DNA of 64,000 nt from Opisthocomus hoazin (Eukaryota; Chordata; Aves; Opisthocomiformes; Opisthocomidae), in the NCBI RefSeq assembly GCF_030867145.1, contig NC_134428.1:26451320-26515319 (forward strand), given 5' to 3'. Made by a program: the position numbers and the translations under genes. Positions 3,776-64,000 of this stretch are shown in pieces; position 1 is the first letter of the stretch; the number at the start of each line of letters is the position of its first letter. Below the pieces are notes generated by a model. The model was not told where the DNA came from. It was given only the letters and a program-made list of their open reading frames with translations, and ran no database searches.

Positions 3776-4270
3776 ATGGCGGCGCCCGGCGGCGCGGAGG
3801 CCCCGGCAGCGGGCGACGCGCTCTGGGCTGAGGTGCGGGGACTGCTGCCCGGCGCCGAGGAGGGGCTGACCTTGGCGCTGAGCGGCGAGGTGGAGGACTG
3901 CGTCCTGCCGCTCCTGCGGCGGGCCCGCGGGCTGCTCTACGGCGCGGCGGGACGGCCCTGCGGGGAGGCGGCGGCGGCGCTGCGGCGCCTGGGCGACGTC
4001 CTGCGCGACTACTCCTGGGAGAAGCTGAACGTGGGGCCGTGGCGGGAGGTCAGCAAGGCCTGGCGGCAGGTCTACGCCTACGGCTGCCTCTTCGGGGTGC
4101 TGGCCGAGGTCGCCGCCGGCCGCCCGCTGCTGCCGGCCGTGCGTCTCTGCGACATGGGGCTGCTCATGGGCGCCTCCGTGCTGGACAACGTCCTGGCCCG
4201 CCTCGTCCGCCTCCTGCAGGGGCACCTGCCCCGCGCGGAGCGGCGCGCCGCCGCCGAGGGGGACGCCAAG
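3776..4270 (+). CDS. KDM8: KDM8 coding exon 1
   Basis: 165 codons, phase 0 at the 3' end, donor AAG|GTACGG. It encodes the N-terminal helical domain up to EGDAK. The frame upstream of the ATG stays open to 3260 only because the CpG island lacks stop codons. Confidence 0.9.
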
Positions 4271-32532: not shown

Positions 32533-32611
32533 ATGTCAATGATGGCAAGGCTCCCAAGTGCTGCACCGTATGCCCTGTGGATCCTTTTCTTTTCGTATAC
32601 AGCAAATGAAG
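32533..32611 (+). CDS. IL4R: IL4R coding exon 1 (signal peptide)
   Basis: The exon body starts at 32498 after TGTTGGCAG. From ATG it encodes MSMMARLPSAAPYALWILFF and SYTANE; donor GAAG|GTATGT, phase 1. The hydrophobic run ALWILFF is the signal-peptide core. Confidence 0.88.
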
Positions 32612-35600
32612 GTATGTTTGTCAATGTTTTAAACTATTATACTGAAGTTTTTATTGACAGCGTTTTCCCATGACTAGTAGGCAACATTAATCAACTAATA
32701 CAAAATGTGTAACTTCACATGTCAGAAATATCTTTATACTAGAATAAATTCTTAATTTTTTTTTTCTTTTTATTGCCCTTTTCCATATGGGCAAGAAAAA
32801 AATAGGAATTTGCAGGAAGGAGAAACTGAGGTTTGGAAAGTCATCTCCCTGCTTCAGTATTATCTAATCTCTGTCGGACAACCTTGTTGCAAACAGGGTG
32901 CTTAGCAATGACCCAGGGACATCTCTGTAGAAATCCCGTAAGAGTAGAAAGCACTAGTCTCTCACTTGCTTACTTTGATAACTGCAACTGTTGGCCATGC
33001 GGGACCTGGAGGGAGCTGTGATCATGAAATGGAATCTGTGGATCTACTATTAAAGGACATCTGTCAATTTGGCTTCTCTGAAGTGTGCAGAGTTGCTAAG
33101 TTGGAAAATTTAGTTGATGGGGTTTGAATAAATTTTGCAGGCACTTGCTGTCAGACATTCGGTGCTCTGACTTGTGCCTGTACATGGGCAGATGACTGGC
33201 ATGTGATGTCCTATGTGTTCTTCACTACACCATTGTTTTGGTCTGGCAGGACGTGTAGCTGCATTAAGTCTTAATGCTGCTTGTTAACTGGTTATTTTCT
33301 GAAGTGCAACTGGCGGGGGCTGAAGATGAAAATGGTTTTATTCTTGCATCTTTTCTGATACTTGATTATAAAGACAAGGTAGATATATAAAATCATGTTT
33401 TCCGACAATGCATTTTATTCGCTGGAAAATGAATCTTACATTTTATTTCTGTTGTTTTTAAATAGTTCCACAGTAGTCTACAGTTTTTTTTTCTTGTTTG
33501 TTTTTTGGGTTTTTTTTTGAAGAAAGAAAACCAAAATAGTTAAAATAGCCTGTCTCTAAAAAGGAAGGTTAGTTAGCTACTTTCTTATGTACTATGAAAT
33601 GGTACGATTTGAATTTTAATTAATGAGAAGGATCAAAGTTTGCAAGAGCACATTGGCTGGGTCATCTGATCCAGGTAATCCCACATCTTCTGTAAGTGAT
33701 TTTTATCAAGGTTTAATTTTACAGTTGTGGTTTCACACACACCCCCCCCCCCCAGTTAACTATGTGTTTTAAGTTTCTTCAGCATGACGTTCTAGTTGAG
33801 GATTAAAAAAGAAATCCACTATTTCAGTTCCCTTTTTTAACTACACCAACTGAAAACAAACTCTGTGTACTGTAGGTGCTTTCAAAAGGAAATTCTCAAA
33901 TATCTGAGGCTTTAAAAAAAAATATGCTGTACCAGAGATGAAAAAGGGAGAAGGTCACAGGAGAAGAATACAGAAGATAATTTAGAGTTCTGGAAAGACA
34001 TGAGGGCGTTGAAGGGCAAGACAAAGTAAAGCTGCTAATCATCATAGCTTAACATAGCAGGAAGAGCTTTATTTAATTAAAGTATTCTTGAAAGTGTAAG
34101 ATGATTAACACAGTGGAAAAAATAACGATGTTCATCTTTAAAGGGCTTAAAATGTTAGTACTTCTTCTAAAAGTCTATCTTAAAGTGGAAAAAAAGAAAC
34201 TAACAATAAAAATACAAATGGCAACCAAATATAATCAGTAGCAACAGGATAAATAGATAATTGTTCTTTTAAAATAAATGAGCAGTGTGACTGTTACAGA
34301 ATTGCAGAAGTTTAACTTGCTGCTCTTCTGGTAATTCTTGGGTTTTTCTGAACAATCAGGGACCATGCAGAACAAAAGGGAACTAAATGTGGTGCTGCCA
34401 TCCAGAAAGGATGTAAGAGTGATAGTTCTTATCTACAAGATAAATATCTAGCCTTAGTAACTAAAACAAACTAAAACATTTTCTAAATATTTAAACACTA
34501 TTGAAACCATGAGCTGCAGTCAATTCTAGGTTTATAACCAGTCAATATGCTAGACAATTCAGATTATGATTTTTGTAGAATTTTTAAATGGTTCCTTGAC
34601 ATTGCTGTATATCCTCATTTGCGTAAGTGAACCTCACTGAGGTTATTGAGCTTACTCCAGTGATCCAGGACTGCTTGGTAGTCAAGTTTTGTGGGAGGCC
34701 TTTTAGGCAAGTGAAAGTGATGTGTGGATTTTAACGAGGATGAAAGACCATACACTGACAGTACTGAACAGTTAAGTATTTGTTTGAGTCGGGTTTTTAT
34801 TGAAGTACCAGAGGGTCTGGTGGTAGAGCCCATTGTAGGTCAAGTATCTTGTCCACTAAAAGGCATCTGACTGTCTTGTTTATTACATTTGCAGATACTG
34901 AACTGTATCAGAGTATGCAGAAGTTGTGTCAATAAATAACCCAAGTGGACTGCAGAGAAGTAGAAATGTAGGAAGGATAAAATTAAATTAGGTGTTTTTG
35001 ACAACTGGAGTTTTTGCTTGGGAGAAATAACCTGAAACTTAGGTACCCGCTGGAAAGAGTAAGCCTGTGAAGCAGCAGTGGCTGAAGGACAAAGACCTTA
35101 CAGGATGTGAATTGTTGGCAACTTAATCTTGAATTTGCAAGGGAAATTATGAAGATGGAGAGTTAGTAATGTGCTGGGCCATGTAAACAAAATTATTTAC
35201 ATACTGTAGAGAAATGAAATCATGTTTTTATATGGCCGCTGTATAATTGCCGCAGGAAACATTCTAGCAGAACCTCTTAGGAAACTATCAGGGAAAAATA
35301 TCAATTAATAGGATTCTAAAAACCTGCCAAAGCTGTTCTAAATTTTCATCGGGAATTGAGATGTAGAGCAGGAGAGAAGAATTTAGATCTGTACAACCTG
35401 TGCAAGAAAAGGGAGAAATTGTTAATATTGCCAGTAACAGAGACGTCAGACATCAAAGAAGGCAAAGAATTGTCTGGGATGATAAAAGTATAAGCTATTT
35501 CTTAGTGCATCACTTGGAAATTATCACATTCCAGTGCTATGTTTGGCACACTGTTAGTCCTAATAACAGCATGACCTTACTGTCACATAGCTCCTTCTCT

Positions 35601-38600
35601 TCTGTTCCTTGTTCCACTAATGTGGAGTGTATTGACATAATGGAAAATAAGGCTGTATGGGATACTGAGGATTGTGTATTCCATTTCCCTTTTCAGTTCT
35701 AACAAAGCTATTTTGACTAATGTTTTCTTTTTTTTTTTCCTAAATACTACTAGTGGAAGAGATTGTGAACATGAACATTGGGAGTGCAGAGACTTTGGGC
35801 TTTTGTGTACCCTCTCAGTGCCTGGAACAATGTGACACTAAATCTCTTCAGGTCTCTCAACACTATTATAACAATGAAAAGCAGAAGATGGAACAGGAAA
35901 TACTCAGTGAAATTAAGAAAATGTGCATACTAGAAGAAAGCCTGTGACAGGAAGAGCTTCTAGGCTATGGAGAACTGCTCTGGGGAGACAGAGGGCATGC
36001 ATTTGGGAATCTTAGAACCATTGTAGATAAAGCAGGAGTACGTGCCTGTAGGCAGTGATCTTGATCTGACTCTGTTAATTATCTGCATTTTAGCTTTTGA
36101 ACCTTTTGTATTTAACACATGGGATGATGCTGTTCTAGAATTAAACGTTGATGTGCATTAAATAGAGCTATCAGGATCAGATTTTCTGTGCTTGGAAGAC
36201 TGTGTTGGATGAGTTGTGCCTTTCTATTTCAATATTACTACTGCAGCCCTTCTTCCTCTCCAGGACCGTAGACGTTGTCTCCAGAAAGGTGGAGACATTA
36301 GGTGACATGCATCTCTTTCCATTTACCCAGAACGTGAAAAAGAACAAGGCTTTCACTTAATTTATAGGGGGTTGGTAGCTCTGTTTAGATGGAAAAGTTA
36401 ATGTTTCTGATTAGTCCAATTTATTCTTTTTATTCTCTTGCTTCTCATGGTGTGCTGCTTCTCCATAGTTATGGCTGCAGGACGTGTACAGGAATTTGCA
36501 TGCTTCACTGACTATGACAAAGAGCTGGTTTGTGACTGGAAGGTGCTTCCACGAACAAATTGCTCCAAAGAATTCCTGCTCTACTACAGGAAGGATTTTT
36601 TTTGTGTGCCGTAAGTGTTGAAGAATTTATGACATTATCATTGTTAGAACTTCATATATCCTATGGCCATTATCGCTTTGATTCCCTCCCTCTGCCATGG
36701 ATGTCTGGGACAAAATGTAATCCAGATTATTCTTGTCAGGTGGAAAATGGATTGCTGCAATTAACAGCATGCTCTGTTCAGTGGTCTAACTTTCTGCAGA
36801 CCTCTCTGCACTTTTAGCACAGACGAGTGATCAAGTTCTACTTGTAGGAGTGGTAGGGCTCTCATAAGTTTGCCCAACCTTCATTTCATGCAAAATTTTA
36901 CCTCCTTCAGGAGAAATCTTACCTGATTTACCAGTCTGTCGCCTGTGTGAAAAGTACTCTGCCCTGGAGCTAGGGGTTATCTCTGCATACAGTCTAACTC
37001 CATGTTCAAGCACAGAGTGTTGTCCGTGTCCTGCAGCAGGGCCAGCTGTCATCTCCTACAAAGGAAGATGCGTCTGGGCTTTCCTGTTCCTCTCCGTATG
37101 ATTTCTCCACACAGACATCCAAATAACCTACTTTGTACACTGTAGTAAACCTGTTCCTATATAGCAAGCTGTCAGTCCGCTCCTTCAGATGTTGAAGTGT
37201 GACAAAGGGTGTTAATTTTTCCTCTTGGGATCAATACTTAGCCTTTCTGTCAAGTTTTTTCATTTGTGCAATACAGATACCCAAAGAGGATTTTGGGAGG
37301 GTGGGTTCTTTTGGAGATTGGGGGAGCTCAGTTTTGGTTTGGATTTGTTTGGGCTAAGTGTTTCTAGGAACTGAGCTCATTTGTCTCAGATTTGATGAGC
37401 TCTACACATCAGGGAAGCTTGATTTCATATTTTCAATAACTAGTGTGCCGCACTTTCTGAACATCACACAATTTTCTGCCTGTTTTTCAGAAATAGTGTG
37501 TGTGTCCCTGAGAATGGAAAAGACAGTTTAAAGTGCACTTGCACAATATATCCGGATTATTTTGTATTAGGCCTCTCGTATATTCTAGCTCTACAGTTCA
37601 ATGGGACTGATATGTGGAATTACAGTGTTACACCAGCCCTGGTTGGTAAGAAACTGTTTTCTTTGTCACCAAGACATCTGCTTCCAGGCTTTGCAATCCT
37701 AGCTAACTCCTCATTCATGACACTGCAACAGTTTTTCCTTGTCAAAGATGAAAAGTGCCGTGCTGGCTTAAATGCGAAATTCATCTGGCTTAGAAACCTG
37801 ATTCTGGAGTAGATTCTTAAGGAAAGAGTGTAAGTAACTGGGAAAGCAGAGAGTGATTCTTCCTCCAGCTGTACACTCTCAGGTGCCAGCCAGCAGCAGT
37901 TTGGGGGCTTAAACCTGTCTTAAGTGCATTTTACTTGTGGCTGTAGAATTCAGGGATGAAGAGGAATGTACTACTTCCGGTTTCTAAAAAGGCACTAGGC
38001 TGTCCCTACTGAAATTTTTCCCACTCCTGTCTTTGTCATTTCGTGCTGGTTGAATCATCCCCCAGAATGGAGATTTTTACAGTAATTGATGCTGGATTAT
38101 AACAACCAGTGATAAAAAGTTAGCAGCTCTGCTCTTTTCACAGGACAGAGTGTAGATGCAGTTTATGTGTCTCTATAGACACCTAGTTTGTTTAGAACGG
38201 TGTGCTCTTTCATGACACTTGTCCCCTCAAACACTCAGAGAAATCTTTCACATACTTTAGGCAGGCATTCGTCTGCATCGATGAGCTGGTTCTTGTCAGG
38301 ATACTTGATTGTCACTGCTGCTTATCAGCAGAATAAGCAGGAGCCTGCATCAGTTTCTAAGCGACAGATAGCCAGGACAGCCTGGAAGTGAAGTTGTCAG
38401 AAGCTCTGTGCCTACCCCGTGGCATAACATGCCATTGTGAGAACGCAGGTGGTTCCCATTTTTCCAGGCTGAAAGCTGCATCCAGTGCACCAAAAGGTTG
38501 AACTTGCAATTTGTTCAGCCAGCTTGAAGATTCAGTGCTTGTTAATGAATACCTTGCAGTTGCTCTATTTTGGCCTCTATATCTTTGTGCTGCAGGTTAG

Positions 38601-41600
38601 TGAAAAGGGCTAAATGCATTGACTGCGATGAGATTCTGTTCTCTGGTGAATGTTTGTCTCTCTGCTTCTCTCCATCAGTGCTTTTCCATTGCCATGTTCT
38701 CCTTAATTATATTTTTTTAACATACAGTTAAGCCAAGGGCCCCCAAAAATCTTGCCATTGAGAAAGTTGAAAATGGTAATTTCAACCTGAGCTGGGAGGA
38801 GAGCTACTCTCCTTTATCCATGCTCTCTGGACAGCCAGTCATCTATGAAGTGAAATACTGGAGGAAGCAGCACCCGACAGAGGTAAGAGACAGCCAGTCT
38901 CTTCATTTTCTGGCTCTCTGGAGCTTTGAGGTTTAAAAATTCCTCTGAAAAGTCTTGAAACCGTTTCATGGATAATGGTGTAAGGGCCAGCAAGGGCAAG
39001 TCCCACAGTGTTCCTGAACATGCACTTCCCACAGGTCGCGTTACCCCAGGGTGGTTCAGCTGGGCCTTAAAGGACTGAAGCTCTTCTGACTGCCACTCCA
39101 AAATGGTCTGCTGCTCACAGGAGATGGGACAGAGATTGAAAATACAATGTTTCTGTTCCCTGAACTTCATTTGCTCCTTAAGACATCAGGAAGCTGGAGG
39201 CTGGTCATGACTCTGGGGTGTACTTGAGGCATTTCAGACACCCTCCTGAGCAATCCAGCACTTCAGGGCTGGGCTGCTTCTGGTAGGGGAAGAACATGGA
39301 CGGTGGCATGTCACAAATGCCACCTGCTCATGACAACAAAATGCAGTATCACGCACAGCAGATCAGGTATACAGTCATTAATTTGCTTATTTGTAAAAGG
39401 TCGCTGAAACACAGAGCACTATTGTTATTTAATTGCTGTCACTAACCCTTCACCTCATAAAGAAATCAAAGTGAACTTTCTCGCTTTCTTTTCAGGTTTC
39501 TGTAAAAGCAATTAACTACCAGGCAAAAAGCTTTGAAATTACTGCAAGCTCCTTGAGGAAAGGCTATGATTACGTTGCAATTGTAAGGTGTAACTATACA
39601 AACTACCCAGCCTACTGGAGTGAATGGAGTGAAGAAGTTGAATTTCACTATGGTAAGTATTGTAACAAATAGCAGCTTGGTAAAAGGATGGTATAGTTTT
39701 GTAAACCATATCATATATACTCTCACTCTCTCCTCTTAGAGGAGAGTTGTGGAATCATCATCTTAATCCTTTTGAATGTATTGTGGATACATCTATAAAG
39801 GCTTCCAAAGAGACTAAACATAAAAAGGCAACTCCTCAGGAAACTAAGGAAGAGAAGTCCAAGGAAAGTTGGATTGTGTAGCCTTGTGAAAAAAAGGCTG
39901 AAAGGGGATGTGTTTATTCTCTGTAAATATTTCATGAAGTAGACACCAGGGAGAGAAAAGAGATATTTAAACTGAAGAACACTGCTGTAAGTGCAAGTGT
40001 GTATAAATGAACAAGAGATATTTAGGCTGCAAATTAAGTAATACTTTAACTGTCAGAGGGCCAAGGGTTTATAAAAATCTCTGAAGAGCAACAGCGGGGA
40101 CAGGAAGCATAGCTGCACTGCAGTGGAGGTGATAATGCCATTGTAGGGACTGTGTGACAGGCTTGTCCTCGAGAGCTGACAGATGGCCTCACAGTACTTG
40201 TTGGCTCTCTCAGGTCCTAATGCTGCTGACTGCAGTACCTCCATTGACCTTTCAGGCATGCCACACACCATTGCCACTGGTAGCTATGTACGCTCTGTTG
40301 TTTATCTGCTGAAGGCTTTATTTTATGTCCTGTAAAGAAGCTTTTTTGTTTTTTAAGGTGCAAAAGAGCAATGAATTGGGTATCATCAGTACTTGTATTT
40401 ATATACACATACACATGTAAATTTGTATGTTTATTTAACAGATTATCGAGTAACAGCTGAAGACATTCTGCAGATGGCTGTTCCTGTATCCTGCATACTG
40501 ATCATGGCAGTATCTGTAATTTGTTACTTCTGTGTTACCAAGTATGTATCATACCGTTCACGGGGTTTATAGGGTAGCAGCTTGCACAGATACCACTATT
40601 GCAGTTGATTAGCTGAATGTCTGGTAGCATGGGAATCTGATGGTTTTATTTTTCCTCAGCATGTTTGTCTCCTCTCTATGAGCAAACATTTTATAAACAC
40701 AGATCAGTTGCACTCTGTCATTTTCTGAATAGATAACTGCATATTCTCTAATAACCTTACTAAAATGGGCTTGTTATAGCATTCAAAACAGCTGCAGTTA
40801 TGGGGTTTGTCAGTTTTGGACCCTAGTCTTTGCCGGAGTTCCAGTAATGATGGTTAAATACCCATATTTCTTAAATTTTCTAGTGGTAATGTGAAAGTGG
40901 GATCATATCTGTTTCATACATCATTTTAAACATGATTAGAAGAACATGTGACTGTGGCTGTGCAGAGCAGTCACACACCAAACATACAGGCATTAAACAC
41001 AAGTTTAATGAAAGGCAACACTTGGAGATGCACAGAACAAGCACTTCCTGTTGCTGCAATGCAGACGTCTGAGAGAGAGGGAAGTGTACACTGATGAAGC
41101 CAAAATGCAGTTAAAATAAACAATTGTAATTCTTCCCTTGCAGAGTGAAGAAAGAATGGTGGGATCAAATCCCAAATCCAGCAAAGAGCCATTTGGTTGT
41201 AAAAAATGTTAAGGTAATTTAAAGTCGTTGCAAAAAATACCTTTTCCTGGACCCCAGAAGTAGAATATGTAAAATAAGTGCTATTGTCTGCTAGTGCAGG
41301 GGATACTAAATACAATTCACGTGTCCTAGATCTCATTTGTATCTTTCTTAGTTTTCAGTTTTGTGCTACATTGATGAAATCAAGTTCCCTTTCCATGACT
41401 TAAAGCAGAGTCATATGGAAAACCAAATGTAAGTAAGATAAAGGAAAAAAAAAAACCCTTCTGCTTTATAGCAGAAAGTAGTTTCCTATTAGATAAACAT
41501 TAACTGTCCTTTCCTTTTGACTTCCAAAAACAGAAGTTGTAAGAATTGTCTGGTTCAACATTTGTCAAGCCAAAACTTCAAGGGAAAAGATAACATCAGA

Positions 41601-43763
41601 AATGTTGAGAAATCTTGCAGTTGTCACAGCAAGTCTGGAGAGTGGTTTCCAAAAGGCAGCAGTGCAGTTTTAACCCCTGAGACAGTTCTGGTTGAAGAGT
41701 CTATAGAAATCTGTGCATGTGTAACAGGCATTGAGGCTGAGAGCCAGGAAGAGACTAGTGACCAGATCACCATGTTTGAGCCTTGTGAAAGCAGTGTCAG
41801 TGCTCTCAGAGAGCACACTGAACGTAATGATGCACTAGCTAGCATGTTTATGGAGATCCTGGCAGATGAAAACAACATGCAAGATAATAAAGACCCAGAC
41901 ATCATCACAGGTGAGAATAAAACCTTTGAGAAACTTGAATCGGAAAATCCATTACAGCGAAATCCAAAAGAAAGCACAGCCCAGAGTCAGCAGCCATGTG
42001 ATATTTCTCATACAGTCTCCCTTTTCACCAAAACCTCTCAAGATGACTACAATTGTAGTACAGCCAGCAAGAACTCAGAACAATCAGAAGAATCCTTTGA
42101 ATCTGGCTATCGGAGCTCCAGCATAAATTCTGCTTCTCTGGATGCAAGCGATCTTCTACATGTGGTTCATCAAAGCCTTTTTCCATGCAGTTCTGAAAGT
42201 CAGCATGACTCAGATGTCCTGATCCAGGAATCTCCAAATAAACCATCCTTTGGGACCAAAAAAGACAGAATAAGCAACACTGCATACAAGAGTTTTGATA
42301 CCCTAGTGTCTCCCTCCATGGGACTGTGTAGCTCTGCGTATAAGAGGTTTGACACACTTATCTCTCCATCCGTGGAACCCTGTGATTCTGCCTACAGGAG
42401 CTATGACACCCTTACGTCTCCATCCGTGGAGCCCTGTGGATCTGCCTACAGGAGCTGTGACACCCTTACGTCTCCATCCGTGGAGCCCTGTGGATCTGCC
42501 TACAGGAGCTGTGACACCCTTACGTCTCCATCCATGGAGCCCTGTGGATGTGCCTACAGGAGCTGTGACACCCTTACATCTCAGTCTATGGCTGACAGTA
42601 GCCTGACTCTGTGTTTTGAAAATGGGTGCTCATCACTACCTTTGACACAGTTTTCAGAAACACCAGAACTTCATTGCAGAGATCAAATTTATCAACCCCC
42701 TTCCAATGAGACATGTTATACCAACTACAGATCTCCCTACACTGAACTTGATTTTCAGAACACCTGTTCTGAACGTACTGATTTTCCATCTTTCTCCGTG
42801 CATGCAAATGACAGTGGTTCAGCTTTCCTACCAGAGGAAGAAATACATAAGCAAGTAACGTACCAAAATGTTCAAAAGAAAGCCAGTATAATTTCTTGCC
42901 CCAGTCGACCTCAGCCATCTGGTTATCAACCTTCTGATAATGCAGTTAAATGTAATGGTACATACTGTGACAGTGATGTTATCTCTGGGTCACCATATGA
43001 AACCTTAACTCATCTTTTGTACAACAACCTGAGACAAACACCTCCAGATACCATAATCTGTGAACCTGACCAGAGGACGGGTGACCATGTATGTTTGATT
43101 GTACAGGGTTTTGACTGCAGCGTTGTCCCGGGTTTAGCCTCTAGTGAGAATGTCACACAGACCAGTGATGACAGCCTTTGGATCATCAACTCTAATGAGC
43201 TGTCTAGTGATAGCAAAGATGAAAATAGTGGCAGAGACAAACAGCTGTTGCATTTGTTAGAGCTGAACTCTCAAGATTTTAACAGCAGAGAAACAACTGT
43301 AAGGGGGACAAATCCTAACAGCTTTAACGATACTGGTAAAGGAATGCAAGAGAGCAGCAATAACAGACTAAATACTGACTTTCACAGCCACACGCACAAC
43401 CATGTGAGGAAACTTGGAAATGCAGGGGAAAATAAAGAGGTGATAAAGCATGCGGTAGGCAGGAGGTGTGGCTCAGCAGCTAGCTTACCAGAAGAATCAC
43501 TGGACAGCATTGGGCTAAACTTAGAAACAAAAACTGCAGAGCCCCTGGAGCTCCTGGTCTCGGAGAAGTTGTCACCTCCTCTTTTTGTGGATAACTCCTG
43601 TCGTGATTCTTACACCATTCACAGCGAGGGTTCCAGACTGGCACCCACAGTTAAAAAAAGACCAGTAGCACTACTGAGGGAAAATAACAGGAAGAATGAG
43701 AAAAAAATGGAACTCGTACAAGTGCTTGCCCAGGAGGACAACTGCTACATGAAGGTAGCCTAA
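32533..43763 (+). CDS. IL4R: IL4R, interleukin-4 receptor alpha chain, complete in nine coding exons
   Basis: Coding exons: 32533-32611, 36469-36610, 37491-37645, 38728-38882, 39496-39652, 40442-40541, 41144-41213, 41352-41428 and 41534-43763; phases all agree, giving 1054 residues (human 825). Order: signal peptide (1-25), two fibronectin-III-like ectodomains with conserved cysteines (FACFTDYDKELVCDW), the WSEWS box (218-222), a transmembrane helix (about 241-261), Box 1 KKEWWDQIPNP (265-275), an acidic stretch, and a long tail. PETVLVEESIEI and LASMFMEILADENN align with the human tail. Residues 561-664 carry six tyrosine-centred repeats. The protein ends YMKVA, like human YMRVS. Family knowledge: it binds IL-4 (and IL-13 with IL13RA1) at the cell surface and signals through JAK kinases and STAT6. 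Three closely spaced ATGs exist; I chose the first. IL21R follows on the same strand. Confidence 0.95.
32612..36468 (+). other. IL4R: IL4R intron between coding exons 1 and 2
   Basis: 3.9 kb, AT-rich, with a C12 tract near 33742-33753 and a T-rich patch near 33488. No repeat family was identified. A pyrimidine tract and TAG at about 35728-35754 precede a 64-codon frame, rejected as an exon (see rejected list). Confidence 0.65.
36469..36610 (+). CDS. IL4R: IL4R coding exon 2 (ectodomain 1, first half)
   Basis: Acceptor CTCCATAG, donor GTGCC|GTAAGT. Encodes VQEFACFTDYDKELVCDWKV, RTNCSKEFLLYY and FFCV; cysteine pattern as in the mammalian receptor (CVSDYMSISTCEW, NCSTELRLLYQ). Confidence 0.93.
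36611..37490 (+). other. IL4R: IL4R intron between coding exons 2 and 3
   Basis: 0.9 kb; nothing recognised. Confidence 0.65.
37491..37645 (+). CDS. IL4R: IL4R coding exon 3 (ectodomain 1, second half)
   Basis: Acceptor TTTTTCAG, donor GTTG|GTAAGA. Encodes NSVCVPENGKDSLKCTCTI and the NGTDMW segment, corresponding to human CIPENNGGAGCVCHL. Confidence 0.93.
37646..38727 (+). other. IL4R: IL4R intron between coding exons 3 and 4
   Basis: 1.1 kb; nothing recognised. Confidence 0.65.
38728..38882 (+). CDS. IL4R: IL4R coding exon 4 (ectodomain 2, first half)
   Basis: Acceptor ACATACAG, donor GAG|GTAAGA. Encodes VKPRAPKNLAIEKVENGNF and LSWEESYSPLSM through YEVKYW, the start of the second fibronectin-III domain. 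Confidence 0.94.
38883..39495 (+). other. IL4R: IL4R intron between coding exons 4 and 5
   Basis: 0.6 kb; a 118-codon minus-strand frame crosses coding exon 4 and is its antisense shadow. No repeat recognised. Confidence 0.65.
39496..39652 (+). CDS. IL4R: IL4R coding exon 5 (WSEWS box)
   Basis: Acceptor TTTTCAG, donor TATG|GTAAGT. Encodes SFEITASSLRKGYDYVAIVR and AYWSEWSEEVEFHY; WSEWS is the type I cytokine-receptor signature. Confidence 0.95.
39653..41143 (+). other. IL4R: IL4R introns flanking the transmembrane exon
   Basis: Two introns, 39653-40441 and 40542-41143, either side of the exon at 40442-40541. Only chance open frames are present; no repeat recognised. Confidence 0.6.
40442..40541 (+). 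CDS. IL4R: IL4R coding exon 6 (transmembrane)
   Basis: Acceptor ATTTAACAG, donor CCAA|GTATGT. Encodes the helix MAVPVSCILIMAVSVICYF. Confidence 0.93.
41144..41213 (+). CDS. IL4R: IL4R coding exon 7 (Box 1)
   Basis: Acceptor CCCTTGCAG, donor AAG|GTAATT. Encodes KVKKEWWDQIPNPAKSHL; KKEWWDQIPNPA is identical to human, the JAK-binding Box 1. Confidence 0.95.
41352..41428 (+). CDS. IL4R: IL4R coding exon 8
   Basis: Acceptor TTTCTTAG, donor CAAAT|GTAAGT. Encodes FSVLCYIDEIKFPFHDLKQ and SHMENQ. Another AG at 41356-41357 would give the wrong phase. Confidence 0.85.
41534..43763 (+). CDS. IL4R: IL4R coding exon 9 (cytoplasmic tail and stop)
   Basis: Acceptor CCAAAAACAG. 2230 bases with no interruption, ending TAA at 43761-43763. 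Starts SCKNCLVQHL (human WKNCLTKLL). Serine-, threonine- and tyrosine-rich, largely disordered by composition. Holds the 18-residue tandem repeats and other tyrosine motifs. Confidence 0.95.
42279..42590 (+). repeat. IL4R: Coding tandem repeat, six 54-bp units in the IL4R tail
   Basis: Units at 42279, 42333, 42387, 42441, 42495 and 42549 (last one 42 bases, partial). Typical unit is SAYRSCDTLTSPSVEPCG. Units 3 and 4 differ by one base, and units 4 and 5 by one base; units 1, 2 and 6 are more diverged. Each unit has one tyrosine, at residues 563, 581, 599, 617, 635 and 653. The reading frame is kept throughout. Confidence 0.95.
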
Positions 43764-45302: not shown

Positions 45303-47610
45303 GGGACGTTCTTCAAAGACTATAACCTGTTAGGAAGGGATGGGATCTACCTGTCTAGAAGAGGAAAGGGAGTCTTCAGCAGCAGGCTGGCTAGCTTGGT
45401 GTGGTGGGCTTTGAACTGAAGGACTTGGGGTGGCGGGGTCAAAAGTCACAGTGCTCAAGCCATCGCATCCAACTGGGGAGTAAGCCAGGCCAGCCAGAGC
45501 AGTGACATATGTTCCTTAGCTGCCTCCCAAGTTGGGAACCAGAAGGCCAGCCACCTTAAGGGGGTGGGTATGGCTATGGCAGATCCTCTTGCACCCATCC
45601 AGGGAAACCTGTATGCTCGATTACCTCTCTGAAATGCCTCTACACCAATGCACACAGCATGGGGAATAAACAGGAAGAACTAGAGATTACTGAATGCCTT
45701 CTTTGCTTCAGTCTTTACCGCTAAGGCTGGCCCTCAGGCATCCCAGTCGCTGGAGATAAGAGAGAAAGCCTCGAGAAAGGAAGACCTTCCGTGGGTCAAG
45801 GAGGGTTGGGTTAGAGATCACTTAAGCCAACTGGACACCCAGAAATCCGTGGGCCCCAATGGGTTGCACTCATGAGTGCTGAGGGAGCTGGCAGATGTCA
45901 TTGTTGAGCCACTCTCAGTCTTCTGAAAGGTCCTGGAAAACAGAAGTGCCTGTGAACTGGTGGAAAGCCAGTGTCACTCCAGTCTTCAGAAAGGGCAAGA
46001 AGGAGGATCCAAGAAACTATAGGCCGGTCAGCCTCACCTCCGTCCCTGGAAAGGTGGTGGAGCAGCTCATTCTGGATGTCATCTCTAAGCAAGTGGAGGA
46101 AAAGGTGGTTATTAGGAGTAGTCAATATGGATTCACCAAGGGGAAATCATAGTTGACCAATTTGATAGCCTTCTACGATGGCATGACCAGCTGGGTAGAT
46201 GAGGGAAGAGCAGTGGATGTTGTCTACCTCGATTTCAGCAAGGCTTTTGACGCTGTCTCCCATAACATCCTCCTAGGGAAGCTCGGGAAGTGTGGGCTGG
46301 ATGAGTGGTCGGTGAGGTGGATTGGGAACTGGCTGAAGGGCAGAGCTCAGAGGATGGTCATCAGCGGCACTGAGTCTAGTTGGAGGCCTGTAACTAGTGG
46401 GGTTCCCCAGAGGTCAGTCAGTCTTGTTCAATTTATTCATCAGTGACCTGGATGAAGAGACGGAGCGTACCCTCAGCAAGTTTGCTGATGACACCAAACT
46501 GGGAGGAGTGGTGGATACACTAGCAGGCTGTGCTGCCATTCAGTGAGACCTGGACAGGCTGGAGAGTTGGGCAGAGAGGAACCTTGTGAAGTTCAACAAG
46601 GGCAAGTGCAGGGTCCTGCACCTGGGGAGGAATAACCCCATGCACCAGTACAGGCTGGGGCTGACCTGTTGGGAAGCAGCTCTGTGGAGAGGGACCTGGG
46701 AGTGCTGGTGGATGGCAAGTTAACCATGAGCCAGCAGTGTGCCATTGCAGCCAAGAAGGCCGATGGGATCCTGGGCTGCATCAAGAGGAGTGTGGCCAGC
46801 AGGTCAAGGGAGGTTCTCCTTCCCCTCTACTCTGCCCTAGTGAGGCCCCATCTGGAGTATTGCGTCCAATTCTGCGCTCCCCAGTTCAAGAACAATGGCG
46901 AACTACTGGAGAGATTCCAGCGGAGGGCTGCGAGGATGATGAGTGGAATGGAGCATCTCTCCTACAAGGAAAGGCTGAGGGAGCTGGGCTTATTTAGCCT
47001 GAAGAAGAGAAGGCTGTGAGGGGATCTTATAAATGCTTATAAATATCTGAAGGGTGGGTGTCAGGAGGATGGGGCCAAGCTCTTTTCAGTGGTGCCCAGC
47101 GACAGGACAAGGGGCAATGGCCACAAGCTGAAGCATAGCAAGTTTCAGCTGAACATGAGGAAGAACTTTACTTTGAGGGTGGCAGAGCACTGGAACAGGC
47201 TGCCCAGAAGGGTTGTGGAGTCTCTTTCTCTGGACATACTCAAAACCTGCCTGGACACAGTCATAGAATCATAGAATGGTAAGGGTTGGTAGGGACCTTA
47301 AAGATCATCTGGTTCTAACCCCCCTGCCATGAGCAGGGACATCTTCCACCAGATCAGGTTGCTCAGAGCTCCATCCAACCTGGCCTTGAACACTGCCAGG
47401 GAGGGGGCATCCACAGCTTCTCTGGGCAACCTGTGCCAATGTTTCACCACCCTCATGGTGAAGAATTTCTTCCTAATATCTAATCTAAATCTGCCCTCTT
47501 TTGGTTTACAGCCATTCCTGTGCAGCCTGCTCTAGGTGAACCTGCTTTAGCAGGGCGGTAGGACTAGATGATTTCCAGAAGTCCCTTCCAACCCCTACCA
47601 TTCTGTGATT
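45303..47610 (+). mobile_element. Defective CR1 LINE, internally deleted and interrupted by another CR1
   Basis: Pieces in order: an esterase-like ORF1 end (YNLLGRDGIYLSRRGKGVF, 45320-45420), a short ORF2 start (LYTNAHSMGNKQEELE, about 45640-45685), then reverse transcriptase sequence (NWWKASVTPVFRKGKKEDPR, 45955 on; VVYLDFSKAFDAVSHNIL, 46220-46270), and the C-terminal part ([13 protein letters not shown], about 46835). The endonuclease domain is missing between about 45687 and 45690. In-frame stops (for example TAG at 46150) and frameshifts make it inactive. The 3' end, CTAGATGATTTCCAGAAGTC to CCATTCTGTGATT, is at 47555-47610. A second CR1 interrupts it at 47262-47516. Confidence 0.92.
47262..47516 (-). 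mobile_element. CR1 fragment inserted antisense inside the larger CR1
   Basis: Begins CATAGAATCATAGAATGG, the reverse complement of a CR1 3' tail, and runs through ATCAGGTTGCTCAGAG and TTTCACCACCCTCATGGTGA to GCCATT. The host CR1 reads CTGGACACAGT on the left and resumes CCTGTGCAGCCTGCTCTAGGTGA on the right, which are contiguous in ordinary CR1 3' sequence. About 255 bases, 5'-truncated. Confidence 0.88.
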
Positions 47611-50600
47611 TTGTCTGCCTCATGAGTAAGCTGACTTACTTCCCTAAATCCAAGCAAAATCAATTTTAAGTAAAAGCCCACAGTTAGTTATTGCAGCTAC
47701 CCAGAATGGATTACTCACTATTTACTGTTAAGGGAGGGGCAGGGACACCAGTGGTGCTTTCTTCCCCTTCTGCCACTGCCCTCTGCTTTGTGCTCTTTGT
47801 GAAATCCTCCTGGAAGGGTTGCACTTGGATGGATCAGCCAGGAGAGGTCTGCTCAGGCCAGGTTTGGAAAGCTGTGTGCTGCAGCACTTCTCTGCTGAGC
47901 CCGAGCCTCATTCTGCCTTTCCCTGGCTTTTTTTCTTCTGCACAGCTATGCCCTCCTGTCTGCTCATTTCTGTTGGATGGCTTTATGTGTGTAGGTATTC
48001 TTCCCCTTGTCTCCTTTCAGTATTTCTCTGGTGAAATAAAACTGTACCTCTTTGAGAAGGAAGAGCCCTATTCCTGTGTTTTTGCATAACCCAGAACTGG
48101 TGATAAACACGGGCTGGCTGCGCAGCTGGCCAGCTCACTCCCCGTCCTGCAGTAGGCACGGTGCATGACTGCAGTGGGAGCTAAGTACATGCTCCATCCT
48201 CCACTTTTGCCATCCAGAGCTACTGCCAAGCTATAAAACACAGGCAGGTTTCAAATGACAGGTGTCTTGGCTGAGATGGTGATCTACCTGGAGCGTGTTG
48301 AGTTGTGACTTTGGGCTGGCTCTCAGGACTGCCAGCGAGGCGTTCTGACCTGAGCCACACCTCCTGGGGACTAGTCTGTGGTTGCAATGGCAGCTTCCCC
48401 TCCCGAGACAGGAACTTCATTCCTGAAGGCTGGGACCCTCCAAGCATGTTCTTTTCAGCTAGCAGAGGGCTCCTACCGGGACAGAGAATTACTGATCATA
48501 GTAAGGGTATTTTCAGTGGTTTTTGGTTTGTTTTGTAAGACTGAAGTGCAGGTGGAGGCTTATGCCAAGTTTTAGCCTAATTACAATTCCATTGACTACT
48601 CGCAGTCACTCCACCTTGATATCTTTCTTACCTGGCTGCCTACCAAGTATTAGCAACCTGACTCACCATGAGTAAAATGAGTTCCTGAGAAAAGCAGGTG
48701 TATTCCCAGTTCAGGAGAAACTAGTTCTGATACACTGTGTTTCCTTTGCAGAGAACGCCACAGCCTTGTCTTTTTTTCTTCTTTCTGAACAGTGTTAGCT
48801 CCTTGGAAATCTGCACCTATATGGAACAGCTGTTGGCAAATTCCTATCAGTCACGAGGTTTGTCATTGCCTGTGGAAAACTAACAATAACCACAAGATGA
48901 GGGTGAGACTAGTATGGAGCAGGAGCTGGAGGATGTGGGTCGAGTTCTTGCAGCTAGGGACAAGTTAATTTAGGGTGAGGGAGGAGTTGGCTTTTTAAAT
49001 AACTTGTCTCTGCATCTTGTTTTGGGACCCTGCATTGTTGAGGCAGGGTGCAAGGATGTCCAAGTGCTTATCCATCATAACCTACAAACCTTATCTAAGA
49101 AAACAAATTCTTTTAGTTGTTGCATTCTAGTAGTGACATGGCCAAAGGAACAAAGGGTGAGAGAACCAAATGAGGCGGTTGTGACTTCCAAAACCCTGCT
49201 CCCTAACGTTTACCTCTGACTGTGGAATTGTGTGACAAAACTACTTAGTGAATAGAGACCAAGAGGACAGTTTGCTTTCTCCTAGCCATGTGTTTTCTGT
49301 AGAAAACTCCTTAGGGAGCATGATTTGTGCAGTTCATATTCTAGCTCTGACAGAGGTGCTTCCAAAGTGTGTAATTTTGCATACAGTTACTTTCACAAAT
49401 AATAGGTGGTTTTGACTGTTTCTCAGGGGAACTCTGCCCATGCACAGGTGCACACACAGAGACATGGATCATTTCCCACCCTCTGCAGATTGCTGAGTAC
49501 AAGGTCCGCTCCAGGCTCCCACGTGGTGATGCCTCATGATTACACATTACCCGGAATTTTAATTTTTTTCACCACGCTGCTATGACTGAGGCAGCCATGT
49601 CATGCTGTCAGCTTTTCATCAGATGTTGCAGCCATGGCACGCAGCCCTCAAGGCCCCTCTGATTGACTAGACTGTGGTGATGAGGTCGGAAGCCAAGCAA
49701 CAGCTCAGCATGAACTTGCTGACAATCAGAACAGTGAGACCAATGAACCGCTCTGGTTTTCAGGTGCAGGACTATCGTCTCTCAAAGCAGATTTCTCCAA
49801 AGCAGAGGAGAAAAACAGCCGAGCAAAGAAGAGGGCACGTTACAGGTACCTCACTAACACACTTAAAGCTTACTAAATTGCTGTATCTTGGTGTGTTTTC
49901 CCAGAGTACCTAATAACAGCAATCAGCAGCACCAGTCCTGACTGTTCTCATTCGTTTGACAAGCTGTTTGTCCCTGGTGCTGTCCTGCTTCCACCCTGTC
50001 CCTTCTGTGGCTTTCTGGGACATGGAAATTTCCACACAGCCACCTTTTGCCCCTCCAGCAAGACTGCAAGATGAAAGAGAAGAAAAACTGGCTGCAGCCC
50101 TAGATGAATGGAGTGGGGAACTGACTGCTGTGGCCCTTCTAGCTGCAAGGGGGGGAGGAGCAGCTGTTTTCTTCTTTTTTTGTTCCCGGCCACAATACTT
50201 TCTATAAAACTCTGACCATCTGTGCAGGAGACCTAGAATTCTGTATTCTGAATCCAGAGGGGCAATTGTAATGGCAAGAGTTCATATAGTACCAGCCTGT
50301 GACCTGCAGCCTGTCTTTGATAGAGGGATGACTGCACTAGACCTGCCCCAATGCATGGCACGGCAGGTGTCCAAAGGAGCTCCTGTCTCAGTTCCATGAT
50401 GGATCAGCTGCTTCCATGGTCCTGTCTATGCTCCATCGTATAAGAGCAGGACATTCACAGAGGTGTGGTGTTTGTCCTCTGCTTGAAGGTTACTGAGTTG
50501 GTGACTAACATACCACTGGGACTTTCCTACTTGCTGCTGTTTCCCAAAGTCGTAGACATGGGGAAATTTGCTATGAGCTGAAGAGTTTGAGGCTGGCTGC

Positions 50601-51870: not shown

Positions 51871-53909
51871 CCCAAACATATTGCAACGTGCTTCTCATAA
51901 CCGCCTGTTTGTCCATCCTGCACCCTCATCCCACCTTTTCTCATGAAGACAAGGTACATCCCTGCCAGTGACATGAGAAGCCATTAATTTTCTTGGGACT
52001 GCGTGTTCTGTGGGTTTGGGATGGAGCCAGCAATGCTGCTGGAGTCTGTGGTCTGCCATGCAATCACCTCCCGCAGCTCACTGCTTCCCACATGGAGGCA
52101 GCGTGCAGTGTGAGCCAGCAGCTTTTGCTTTGAACGTGCTTCCACACTCAGAGGTTGAAAACAGCTTGTGTGGTTTTCACCATATTAGAGATGCCAGCAG
52201 CTGTCCAAGGCACACTAAATTGCTGTACCCAGCCCCAGGTGTGGAAGGCTTTCTGTAAACACTTGTGGCCAGGTAGCATGTGTGGGGCATGCTCATTTTT
52301 GACAGCTGTGGTAAAAAAAAAGATCCCAGAGTCCCAGGTGAGGCTCTTGCCATAAATAGCTGTGTGCGAGCAGCAGAGTTCTGGTGGTCTTGGTGCATCC
52401 TAGTGAGCAGAGATCTGGGAACAAGCTGATAGATGTTGGCTCAAAATGGGTCAGTTTCTGCAAACCTGCATGAAAGGAGCAGTGAGTTCTGCCAGTACTG
52501 TTGACTCAGGTGAGGGCTGTGGGAATACGTGATAGACTTGCTGACCTCATGCAGAGTCAGTGGTTTTTGGAAGCATAAACGCAGAAGATGTGACCTGGGA
52601 CCAGTCTGAGAATGGCTCTGATTGGGGAGGGTGGAGATGGTGGGACACATCAGCTGAACAGACAAGAAAAGGCTGTTGCTTAGTTTGTGAAGCTGCAGGA
52701 ACCCAGCTGTGGGGCACGACTGACAAATATATAGAGGAAGAGTACTGCATGTGGCCTATCCAAAGGGGTCTAGGCTCTCAGAGGAGTGTGCCGTGGAGGC
52801 TGTCTTGGGGAGAGCATGCTTTCCTGTGGGCTGAGCGTATACAGCGTAGTGAGGCATCTGGGGAGATGCTCTGGCACATTTTACATGGTGTAGATGAGGG
52901 TGATGGGTCTGAGCCTGAGCAGAGCTGTAGGTTTCTGTTCCAGATGGTCAGGGTGAGTTCACAGTCATTCCTGTTTCTGTTTACCCGCATGTGTCTGGTG
53001 ATTTCCTATGAGAAGATACAAGCCTCTGTTCAATCCCCTCCGTGTGAGCAAGACGTACGTAGTCACAGCTCTGTGAAGGTAAGCCCTTTTCTTCTGGCAG
53101 GAGCCAAAGCGATGTGCTCCTACTACAGTCTTCATGCAGAACAGGTTCAGACTTGATGTGTATCAGGGAAAACAAGAGGCTGAGCTCCGTGTTGGTGGCT
53201 GCAAAGAGACAACTGGCAAAGGCAAAAGGGAGGCAGGAGGGCAGGGTACTGGGGTCTCTGTAGGTGGCACTCAGCATTCCCCAGACCGAAAGCAATGCCC
53301 TCCTTCCTCTGCAGCATCCTGTGCCAGCTCACAGGGTGCCAGCTGGGGGGCTTTGTTGTTTTTCCAACCTGCTGCTTTGCTGACTAACACCTCCGCTTTC
53401 TGCCTGGCTCATTCATATTTCACCCATTTCCTGAGCTTTGAGGTGGTTTCTTCTATTGCTTTCTCTTCCAGTAGAACACTGTTACTCATGTCTCAGCTGT
53501 TGTCCTGCTATTTTTCACTCATTACTTGTTGTAATGTATGATTATCTTCCTTCTAAATGTCACAAGCCAGTGAAGGTGCTTTTGACCCCAGAGTTATACT
53601 AAGTCTGTATCTTTGACAATGTTGAGGAAATTCTTCTAATTCCATTATGATAGGAAGAAAATAAAAAGATAGTACTGTTTGTGTAGTGTTTTTTTCCCCC
53701 ACATCATGAACTTGATAACTGCAAGGGTCACTCGCTGTCTAGAGAAAAAAATTATCAGCTCTGATTGTTATTTCCTTTGTGTGTGTTTGTTCTTGCTGAT
53801 AGATACATACAGATGTTGCCCCCCTTCTGGTCATAGCAAAATACTTTTGGGTCAACAATAACTTTAGCAGAATCTATCAAGCCTTCTGTGGTGTACCATT
53901 CACATTTGC

Positions 53910-59455: not shown

Positions 59456-60675
59456 TGCACGAGGCCCTGTCAGGAGTTCTGGGTATCTTTTGGTAGCTGC
59501 AGCTTTCTGCCCAGTCTTCACTCCTACTGCTTTCACAGGTGCCTCTGTGCAATCTGTTGCAGGGGGGTTTGCAGAGCTCTGGGGCTCTGCAGAGACACTC
59601 CTGTGTGTCCAGTCACTGACAGTGTCGCTGCTCTGTGGCATGGCATGTAGACCCTCCCTGGTGTCTGTGTGTCCTTGCAACTTGGTGCCGACAGAAGTCT
59701 GTCCCAAAAATAATACAGTTTGCTTCTCCAAAGCTTGTTCCCAGGCAGCCTAGCACATTTCAGAATAGCTTGAGTAAACAGTGCTGAAATCTGTACCTGG
59801 TATCAACAGCTAGTACTCTGCAGGGAGCTCATTTTAAGTCTTTCTGTGCACATCTGTGTGTTTCTGTAAATGTTAAATACCGTGAAAATGCAGGCTTAAT
59901 GTTTTATGTGGCTTGAAGGCCTGGTCTTGGAGCAGGGGCTGTGGGCTGAGCAGTCATTTTTATGTGATGCTGTTTCCTTGTTATAAACATCCTGCTGTCC
60001 TCTTCTCTGAAGAATTTTGTGTAGGTTCTCTTCACCAAACTGCGTCAAGACAGCCTTCCCCTGAAGTGAGTGCTGTACTCTTCTGTGCCACATAAGAGGC
60101 TGTTGTTTGTGTGTTTTTTTTGTCTAGTCTGCCTTCCTGGAGTGCCTTAACTAATATTCCATGCTTATTTAACCATGGGTAGGCCAAATCGATAAGCCTT
60201 GCTCATACAGACCCACAGTGACATTCAGATTCTATTTGACTAATTCACTGTACAGATGTTTAAGCCACAGCAATGTCACTTCTCCTAGTTGCAAGCCATT
60301 TTTAGTTGCAGGAAACCAATAAAGAAAAAAATGGCTTAGCACTTAACCCAAGTGCCTTCCTGTTGCATGGATAGGCTGAGGCTGCAGTCACTTTGCTGCT
60401 TTCTCTGTGCACATGCTTCTGGCAAGGAGCAGAGATTTCACTGACCTGGTTTATGGCCAGTTGGCAAGGCTATTGGTCATCCACCCTTTAGCCCATGGAG
60501 TAGATACCTACAGGAAAGCTGAGATGACTTGCCTAAATTAGGCACTTTAAAACACTTAAATGAAAGCAAGATTAATTTCACCTCAACCCTCAACATATGA
60601 GCAGATAGCTGAGCTGAATTTCTAATTGGTTGGTTGGGGTTTTTAAAGTGTCTGGGTTTTTGGTTGTTTTTCCAG
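59456..60675. other. Sequence upstream of IL21R first coding exon
   Basis: Non-coding. An AATAAA near 60320 has no coding partner. Probably promoter or 5' intron of IL21R, because the first coding exon has an acceptor at its left edge. Confidence 0.5.
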
Positions 60676-60695
60676 GACATCCAGTCAGAACCAAC

Positions 60696-60750
60696 ATGAG
60701 GAACAAACTGTGGCTCCAGAGTATTTCCTTCTTCCTTTTATTCCAGTACA
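60696..60750 (+). CDS. IL21R: IL21R coding exon 1 (signal peptide)
   Basis: Exon body from 60676 after TTTTTCCAG; ATG in AACATGAGG context; donor TACA|GTAAGT, phase 1. Eighteen codons, strongly hydrophobic. Confidence 0.82.
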
Positions 60751-63700: not shown

Positions 63701-64000
63701 GCCTTCCTGTAGAGATTGTACACATCTCATGCTCCAAGACTGCAGACTTTTGTGGGGGCTGGCACAGTGTGATCTGTTCCCTTCAGATTCAGTGGGAGCC
63801 CTGAGGACTGTGTATGTTGATATAAAGTTCTGCTTGCTTCACCATGGAAGTTGATATCATGTTTTGTCTTTCCAAACCTACAGCTACGTGTTGTGAAAAC
63901 CTCACTTGTTTCGTGGACTATGTACAGACCCTGTCCTGTATCCTGAGAAATGACTTGGGTGCCAGTTCATATAACCTCACTGCAACATGGTATGTCGCAG
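60696..64000 (+). CDS. IL21R: IL21R, interleukin-21 receptor, partial (runs off the right edge)
   Basis: Only the first two coding exons are in the window: 60696-60750 and 63894 to the edge. Exon 1 encodes a hydrophobic leader, MRNKLWLQSISFFLLFQY, and exon 2 continues TCCENLTCFVDYVQTLSCIL, then NDLGASSYNLTATW. The latter aligns with human IL21R DLVCYTDYLQTVICILEMW, including both cysteines and the DYxQT core, and with the start of the fibronectin-III-like ectodomain. Family knowledge: IL21R pairs with the common gamma chain at the surface of lymphocytes and signals through JAK1/JAK3 and STAT3. The WSxWS box, membrane helix and tail lie beyond the window. Position immediately 3' of IL4R, same strand, supports the call. 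Confidence 0.88.
60751..63893 (+). other. IL21R: IL21R intron 1
   Basis: 3.1 kb. Contains an A13 tract near 61059, a G9 run near 62052 and a TATAAAAGG sequence near 63567. No repeat family was recognised and no intervening exon seen. Confidence 0.65.
63894..64000 (+). CDS. IL21R: IL21R coding exon 2 (partial)
   Basis: Acceptor AACCTACAG; completes A|CT (Thr) and reads CCENLTCFVDYVQTLSCIL to the window edge. Two potential N-glycosylation sites, NLT in each case. Confidence 0.88.

Follow-up and report, generated by a model that had tools for sequence, protein, structure and literature searches.

The cytoplasmic tail of the hoatzin (Opisthocomus hoazin) IL-4 receptor alpha chain contains a run of similar tyrosine motifs set head-to-tail. 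This raises the question of which tyrosine of the human receptor, if any, they correspond to, which signaling proteins they might attract, and whether their number matters. We address it using a 64,000-nucleotide stretch of hoatzin DNA (contig NC_134428.1, positions 26,451,320 to 26,515,319; hereinafter the window, to which all coordinates refer) and the tails of related receptors. Residue positions are counted from the tyrosine of each unit, and units with Phe or Cys at +3 are termed F-type and Cys-type respectively.

Identity of the gene

The initial annotation had assigned this locus to avian IL4R, which is confirmed. The translated last exon matches the annotated hoatzin IL4R protein (P0001) with 100% (rounded) identity and 100% query coverage, while the remaining matches over more than one-fifth of the query show at most 83% identity. 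P0001 contains the Pfam IL4Ra_N domain (1e-30), together with a fn3 match below Pfam's cut-off, and is placed exactly on window exons from 32533 to 43757 plus two alternative 3' exons downstream. The neighborhood is likewise that of IL4R, in that the IL4Ra_N ectodomain is found between KDM8 and IL21R, a gene order that we take to be common to mammals. The N-terminal ARM domain of KDM8 (Pfam PF24472) lies at about 3947-4348 (+), whereas 60675-60749 and 63886-63993 (+) match the IL21R part of a swift entry (P0111), an IL4R-IL21R fusion model; IL21R thus apparently starts near the window's right-hand end. The repeated motifs lie wholly within one exon of P0001 and inside a large, continuous ORF (41493-43763; Table 1). 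Neither Pfam nor the PDB gave any match to the tail.

Table 1. IL4R features in the window; limits of the upstream exons, taken from exact peptide matches, are accurate to a codon or two
Feature	Position	Strand	Remarks
Upstream IL4R coding exons	32533-32610, 36468-36611, 37492-37644, 38727-38885, 39496-39651, 40441-40542	+	exact peptide matches
Exon with juxtamembrane WWDQIPNPAKSHLV stretch	41145-41213	+	stretch presumably box 1
Last coding exon of IL4R, YMKVA* form	41535-43763	+	most of the cytoplasmic tail; begins inside a codon
Tandem array	42282-42605	+	six 18-aa (54-bp) units, head-to-tail, one open frame
Unit 1	42282-42335	+	AYKSFDTLVSPSMGLCSS; Phe at +3, Asn at -3, Thr at -2; aligned with human Y497
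Unit 2	42336-42389	+	AYKRFDTLISPSVEPCDS; Phe at +3
Unit 3	42390-42443	+	AYRSYDTLTSPSVEPCGS; Tyr at +3
Unit 4	42444-42497	+	AYRSCDTLTSPSVEPCGS; Cys at +3; one base different from unit 3
Unit 5	42498-42551	+	AYRSCDTLTSPSMEPCGC; Cys at +3
Unit 6	42552-42605	+	AYRSCDTLTSQSMADSSL; core DNA as in units 4-5, linker of the ordinary last-unit type
Site A tyrosine (SGYQPSD)	42924-42926	+	aligned with human Y575; Ser, not Phe, at +3 in hoatzin
Site B tyrosine (SPYETLT)	42996-42998	+	aligned with human Y603; Glu at +1, Leu at +3 in hoatzin
C-terminal tyrosine (NCYMKVA*)	43746-43748	+

The array in the hoatzin tail

The six units named in the initial annotation (AYKSFDTL, AYKRFDTL, AYRSYDTL and three of AYRSCDTL) are all present in one open plus-strand frame; the array was correctly located, but its ends are moved from 42279-42590 to 42282-42605. 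Tandem Repeats Finder recovers a period of 54 bases (score 396), and the self-identity of the ORF at lag 54 amounts to 229 of 270 bases, far above the maximum of 102 in 500 codon shuffles: hence, the array is beyond chance, and the multiplication of one tyrosine motif in the IL4R tail is borne out by six 54-bp units. Ala precedes the tyrosine in all six; Ser is found at +2 in units 1 and 3-6, with Arg in its place in unit 2. Phe at +3 is confined to units 1 and 2, so that the description of the set as six STAT6-docking-like motifs was overstated. Upstream of the array, at 42090-42119 (+), there is also a conserved ESFESGY[R/Q]SS motif, of which ESGYxS is invariant in an eight-sequence alignment.

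Unit number across sauropsids

Three protein searches gathered 111 proteins. Five were left out: P0037, another isoform; P0097, a further record of a turtle already in the set; P0101 and P0102, each some 440 residues in length with no unit found; and the fusion model P0111, likewise with no unit found. The 106 tails retained cover birds, turtles, crocodilians and the tuatara; the third search, directed at mammals and squamates, yielded nothing but turtles and birds. The 95 bird rows consist of 81 named by species and 14 from another source (lgn) that fall among birds in the tree, some of which may duplicate named species. The score matrix used to locate units was itself derived from these sequences. 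Two first units escaped the scan, that of P0085, which is outside the scanned range, and the decayed one of ostrich P0044, which is below threshold; both were added to the final counts only, which shifts totals by one or two.

The array was found in all 106 tails, with 2 to 17 units and a spacing of exactly 18 residues in 490 of 492 intervals (the others being 15 and 13). Birds have 3-12 units (n = 95, median 5), turtles 2-4 (n = 7), the three crocodilians 16, 17 and 11, and the tuatara 15. The unit count, which the initial annotation had proposed to compare, therefore does differ between species. The same survey qualifies the feature's characterization as avian: every bird row has it, but so do crocodilians, turtles and the tuatara, which rules out a hoatzin- or bird-only feature. 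A FastTree tree built from the tail with the array removed gives at least 51 changes of unit number, at least 7 changes in the Tyr state of the first unit and at least 10 in the presence of a Cys-type unit; these counts are rough, as 25 of the 103 internal branches remain open, the tuatara sits on a long branch and the tree labels lack the later-added first units of P0085 and P0044. In this well-known receptor the array is real, ancient and variable, and, judging from the sequences, the number of possible attachment points for signal proteins seems to have shifted repeatedly during evolution.

An assembly or annotation artefact might mimic such variability, as short-read assemblies can collapse repeats. 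For instance, the chicken-like P0081 differs from chicken P0062 by 11 mismatches and 54 gapped residues, equivalent to three units fewer in P0081, which is either a copy-number polymorphism or short-read collapse. Yet the shared register in 106 rows and the continuous ORF in the window largely refute an artefactual origin of the array, which we consider most improbable; individual unit counts may nevertheless be too low from repeat collapse.

Conserved and variable positions of the unit

The steadiest core positions in 515 bird units are +1 (Lys/Arg, 0.99) and +2 (Ser, 0.97), while -1 is Ala in 0.90 and Gly in 0.04. The tyrosine itself reaches only 0.85 because the first unit is without it in 69 of the 95 rows: it is retained in 415 of 422 non-first bird units. 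Non-bird units have the Tyr in 80 of 81 cases and Phe at +3 likewise in 80 of 81. At +3 the 422 non-first bird units have Phe (301), Cys (103), Leu (11), Tyr (3), Val (3) or Ile (1), and both main types keep the tyrosine (296/301 F-type, 101/103 Cys-type). Of the 95 bird rows, 94 end in a unit with Phe at +3, hoatzin being the sole exception, and all 95 arrays have at least one Y[KR]xF unit, with 93 having at least two.

Cys-type units beyond the first show a phyletic pattern: none of the 19 rows comprising palaeognaths, Galloanserae and P0081 has one, but 60 of the 76 remaining bird rows do. In a 25-row songbird clade, unit 2 has the Tyr in all rows and Cys at +3 in 24. Both patterns would suit an array that docks other SH2 proteins, such as negative regulators, with the Cys-type as a separate specificity that arose in Neoaves. 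However, the first unit of the songbird clade, mostly devoid of Tyr, is nearly as conserved as unit 2 (mean 0.91 versus 0.93), so that constraint is hardly separable from short divergence, and we know of no SH2 domain with a preference for Cys at +3. We regard such a role as improbable. Within songbirds, a clade of five finch rows (P0070, P0074, P0082, P0090 and P0095) has a Tyr in the first unit where related rows mostly have Asp; it was perhaps regained.

Signs of exchange and constraint among the units

Internal units are more alike within a bird row (mean identity 0.88) than between rows (0.76; 55 rows), and hoatzin units 3-5 are 1-3 bases apart from each other. In hoatzin unit 6, the combination of a core identical to that of units 4-5 with the usual last-unit linker suggests exchange between units, with a break just 3' of the core. 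In-frame tandem units with a number that varies between species and with exchange between them are what is expected of a coding minisatellite. Under such an explanation, units would be gained and lost through slippage and unequal exchange, the disordered tail would tolerate this, and one or two units would matter with their overall number being nearly neutral. In addition to the homogenized internal units, it is favored by the frequent changes of unit number on the tree, by the first unit so often lacking its tyrosine and by predicted disorder: the AlphaFold2 model (20-row alignment) has a mean pLDDT of 39.5, with 33-39 in the array blocks and no secondary structure in the array. This lack of any fold rules out a folded solenoid; the low pLDDT also fits, as expected, a disordered docking tail.

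Against near-neutrality, the eight core codons of hoatzin units 1 and 2 differ at 5.0 of 5.7 synonymous sites but at only 1.0 of the 18.3 non-synonymous ones (p = 0.0008, Fisher test with counts rounded), in a test that uses hoatzin DNA only, with small counts and non-independent unit pairs. The linker shows no significant contrast (synonymous 3.5/8.0, non-synonymous 6.5/22.0). The cores of units 3-6 compared with unit 1 go in the same direction (synonymous 0.67-0.70, non-synonymous 0.11), while among themselves they have no synonymous change and hence are uninformative on constraint. The mainly silent differences between the core codons of the older hoatzin units suggest selection on the tyrosine motif. 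The retention of Tyr in F-type and Cys-type units alike and the near-universal Phe of the last bird unit also argue against a minisatellite of little consequence. Conversely, units can stay similar through homogenization by unequal exchange even if no selection acts, which counts against a docking array. On balance, we see the nearly neutral minisatellite as a possible but rather doubtful account.

The counterpart in the human receptor and the likely docking partner

In the human receptor, Y497 recruits IRS2 and Shc, and Y575, Y603 and Y631 recruit STAT6 (available text of PMC8442009). The I4R motif is given as PL-(X)4-NPXYXSXSD, with NPXY in its core, and the STAT6 consensus as GYKxF, the STAT6 motifs being independent of the I4R motif (available text of PMC5962649). 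Our alignments used a provisional human sequence. When only the first unit of the array was kept, hoatzin unit 1 fell on human Y497 in all six alignments where Y497 was unmasked; sites A and B fell on Y575 and Y603 in the three unmasked alignments. When the Y497 motif was masked the array was placed elsewhere, and masking Y575 moved sites A and B to Y603 and Y631; thus, the Y497 match rests on motif and order, and the names given to sites A and B are tentative. The proposal that a STAT6-type motif was multiplied is therefore only partly sustained: by alignment the counterpart is Y497 rather than Y575, Y603 or Y631, but the Phe at +3 of units 1 and 2 is STAT6-like.

Comparison with the I4R motif (Y497, docking IRS1/2 and Shc; available text of PMC5962649 and PMC8442009) reveals the aligned position and an A-Y-[K/R]-S-F core in common, with hoatzin unit 1 additionally sharing the Asn at -3 and the Ser at +2. 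This Ser is also present in units 3-6. The two differ in that the motif is apparently single in human but forms 2-17 tandem units in sauropsids. Further, the Pro at -2 is missing in hoatzin, where unit 1 reads NTAY and units 2-6 are without Asn at -3, and 90 of 95 bird tails are without any NPxY. This bears on an array of IRS/Shc docking sites that would have multiplied the role of Y497, as its aligned position would suggest. In line with it, the three crocodilians have NPxY in 27 of their 40 Tyr-bearing units beyond the first, which makes an IRS role plausible there. By contrast, NPxY is found in none of the 413 such units of birds and in only 5 of 95 bird tails, and the counterpart of Y497 so often lacks its tyrosine in birds. 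These sequence features count against an IRS role. Accordingly, IRS binding, which the initial annotation had entertained, is unlikely under the known rule in hoatzin units 1-6, and we hold an IRS/Shc array to be a shade less probable than docking of other SH2 proteins. More broadly, this suggests that most birds may lack the IRS arm of mammalian IL-4 signaling or have it in modified form.

The presence of Y[KR]xF units in all 95 bird rows, coupled with the scarcity of NPxY, leads to a STAT6 reading of the F-type units. Like the human STAT6 sites Y575, Y603 and Y631, the array offers redundant tyrosines on one tail, and its F-type units share with them the Lys/Arg at +1 and Phe at +3. Unlike them, it is not made of dispersed single sites, has Ala rather than the consensus Gly at -1 in every hoatzin unit, and in four of the six hoatzin units is without Phe at +3. 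The Ala at -1, as in human Y497, and the Cys at +3 in 103 of 422 non-first bird units would count against STAT6. Human Y497, whose motif we take to be single in that receptor, presumably also has Phe at +3 and is not listed as a STAT6 site; hence, Phe at +3 alone is no proof of STAT6 docking.

Tyrosines downstream of the array

Among the bird rows that cover each site, site A has the form Y[KRQ]xF in 85 of 93 and site B in 5 of 89, as opposed to 8 of 8 covered non-birds for site B. A general loss of downstream STAT6 sites in birds is thereby ruled out, only site B being widely altered. Two crocodilians with site A covered have, like hoatzin, lost its Phe at +3. Among 88 bird rows just two, hoatzin and Corapipo altera, have Y..F at neither site. 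Given the two F-type units left in hoatzin and the lack of Phe at +3 of sites A and B, units 1 and 2 would be its main STAT6 docking sites; in most birds the intact site A means that no dependence on the array need be invoked.

A proposed variable docking array grown from the Y497 module

The reading we favor, though we would put it only at about even, is that the array is a copy-number-variable set of phosphotyrosine docking sites grown from the Y497 module, the F-type units of which most likely bind STAT6. The tyrosine module at the mammalian Y497 position would have undergone tandem expansion in the sauropsid IL-4 receptor alpha tail. JAK kinases would phosphorylate the unit tyrosines after IL-4 or IL-13, and the Y[K/R]xF units would dock the SH2 domain of STAT6, so that a single disordered tail would offer several points of attachment. 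Local STAT6 capture could then be set by how many units there are and by what share of them is F-type, with Cys-type units being weaker or attracting a different SH2 protein; most of the STAT6 docking in hoatzin would fall to units 1 and 2. As STATs are argued to compete for limited receptor phosphotyrosines (available text of PMC8099432), the number of units could matter. A more far-reaching and rather speculative scenario is that an IRS-docking module became a copy-number-variable STAT6 array in early sauropsids, that in birds the IRS branch has largely disappeared from this position, and that lineages tune IL-4/IL-13 gain through unit number and a Phe/Cys switch at +3.

Multi-site phosphotyrosine docking is familiar from the ITAM multiplicity of the T-cell receptor and the YxxP repeats of p130Cas. 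Among cytokine receptors, gp130 has four STAT3 motifs (available text of PMC11339341). All three resemble the IL4R array in that a single flexible chain presents many docking tyrosines of a similar kind; they differ from it in that the array consists of head-to-tail copies, in species-variable number, in a JAK-STAT cytokine receptor. Multi-site docking as such is familiar. A cytokine receptor whose near-identical docking-like modules range in number from 2 to 17, in a nearly fixed register, would offer a natural dose series to show whether JAK-STAT output follows docking-site number.

Earlier literature on the chicken receptor and the region downstream of IL4R

In open PMC literature, with most subscription journals, figures and supplements outside its scope, no description of the array was found among the matches listed, and the unit words AYKSFD, AYKSCD, NPAYKSF and AYRSFN had no occurrence in the open PMC papers searched. 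Downing et al. 2009 (PMC3224688) reported elevated dN/dS and site-model evidence of selection for chicken IL4R; the words "repeat" and "tandem" are absent from its main text. Seven of the 17 exon-9 sites in its Table 2 map into the array (offset 116; 11 of 17 residues agree). Three of the 17, one of them among these seven, are marked in that table as close to significance or as hinging on a single divergent sample. At the array sites, an apparent signal of selection could arise from exchange between units.

Hoatzin isoform X3 (P0001) is spliced from the last IL4R codon (43757) to exons at 49764-49844 and 53015-53044 (+), giving it a longer C-terminus in place of YMKVA*. Read-through IL4R-IL21R models also exist in databases. 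Between the two 3' ends, at 45883-46149 (+), lies a reverse-transcriptase fragment (RVT_1, 5.5e-05, below Pfam's cut-off) that we take to be probably a CR1 element.
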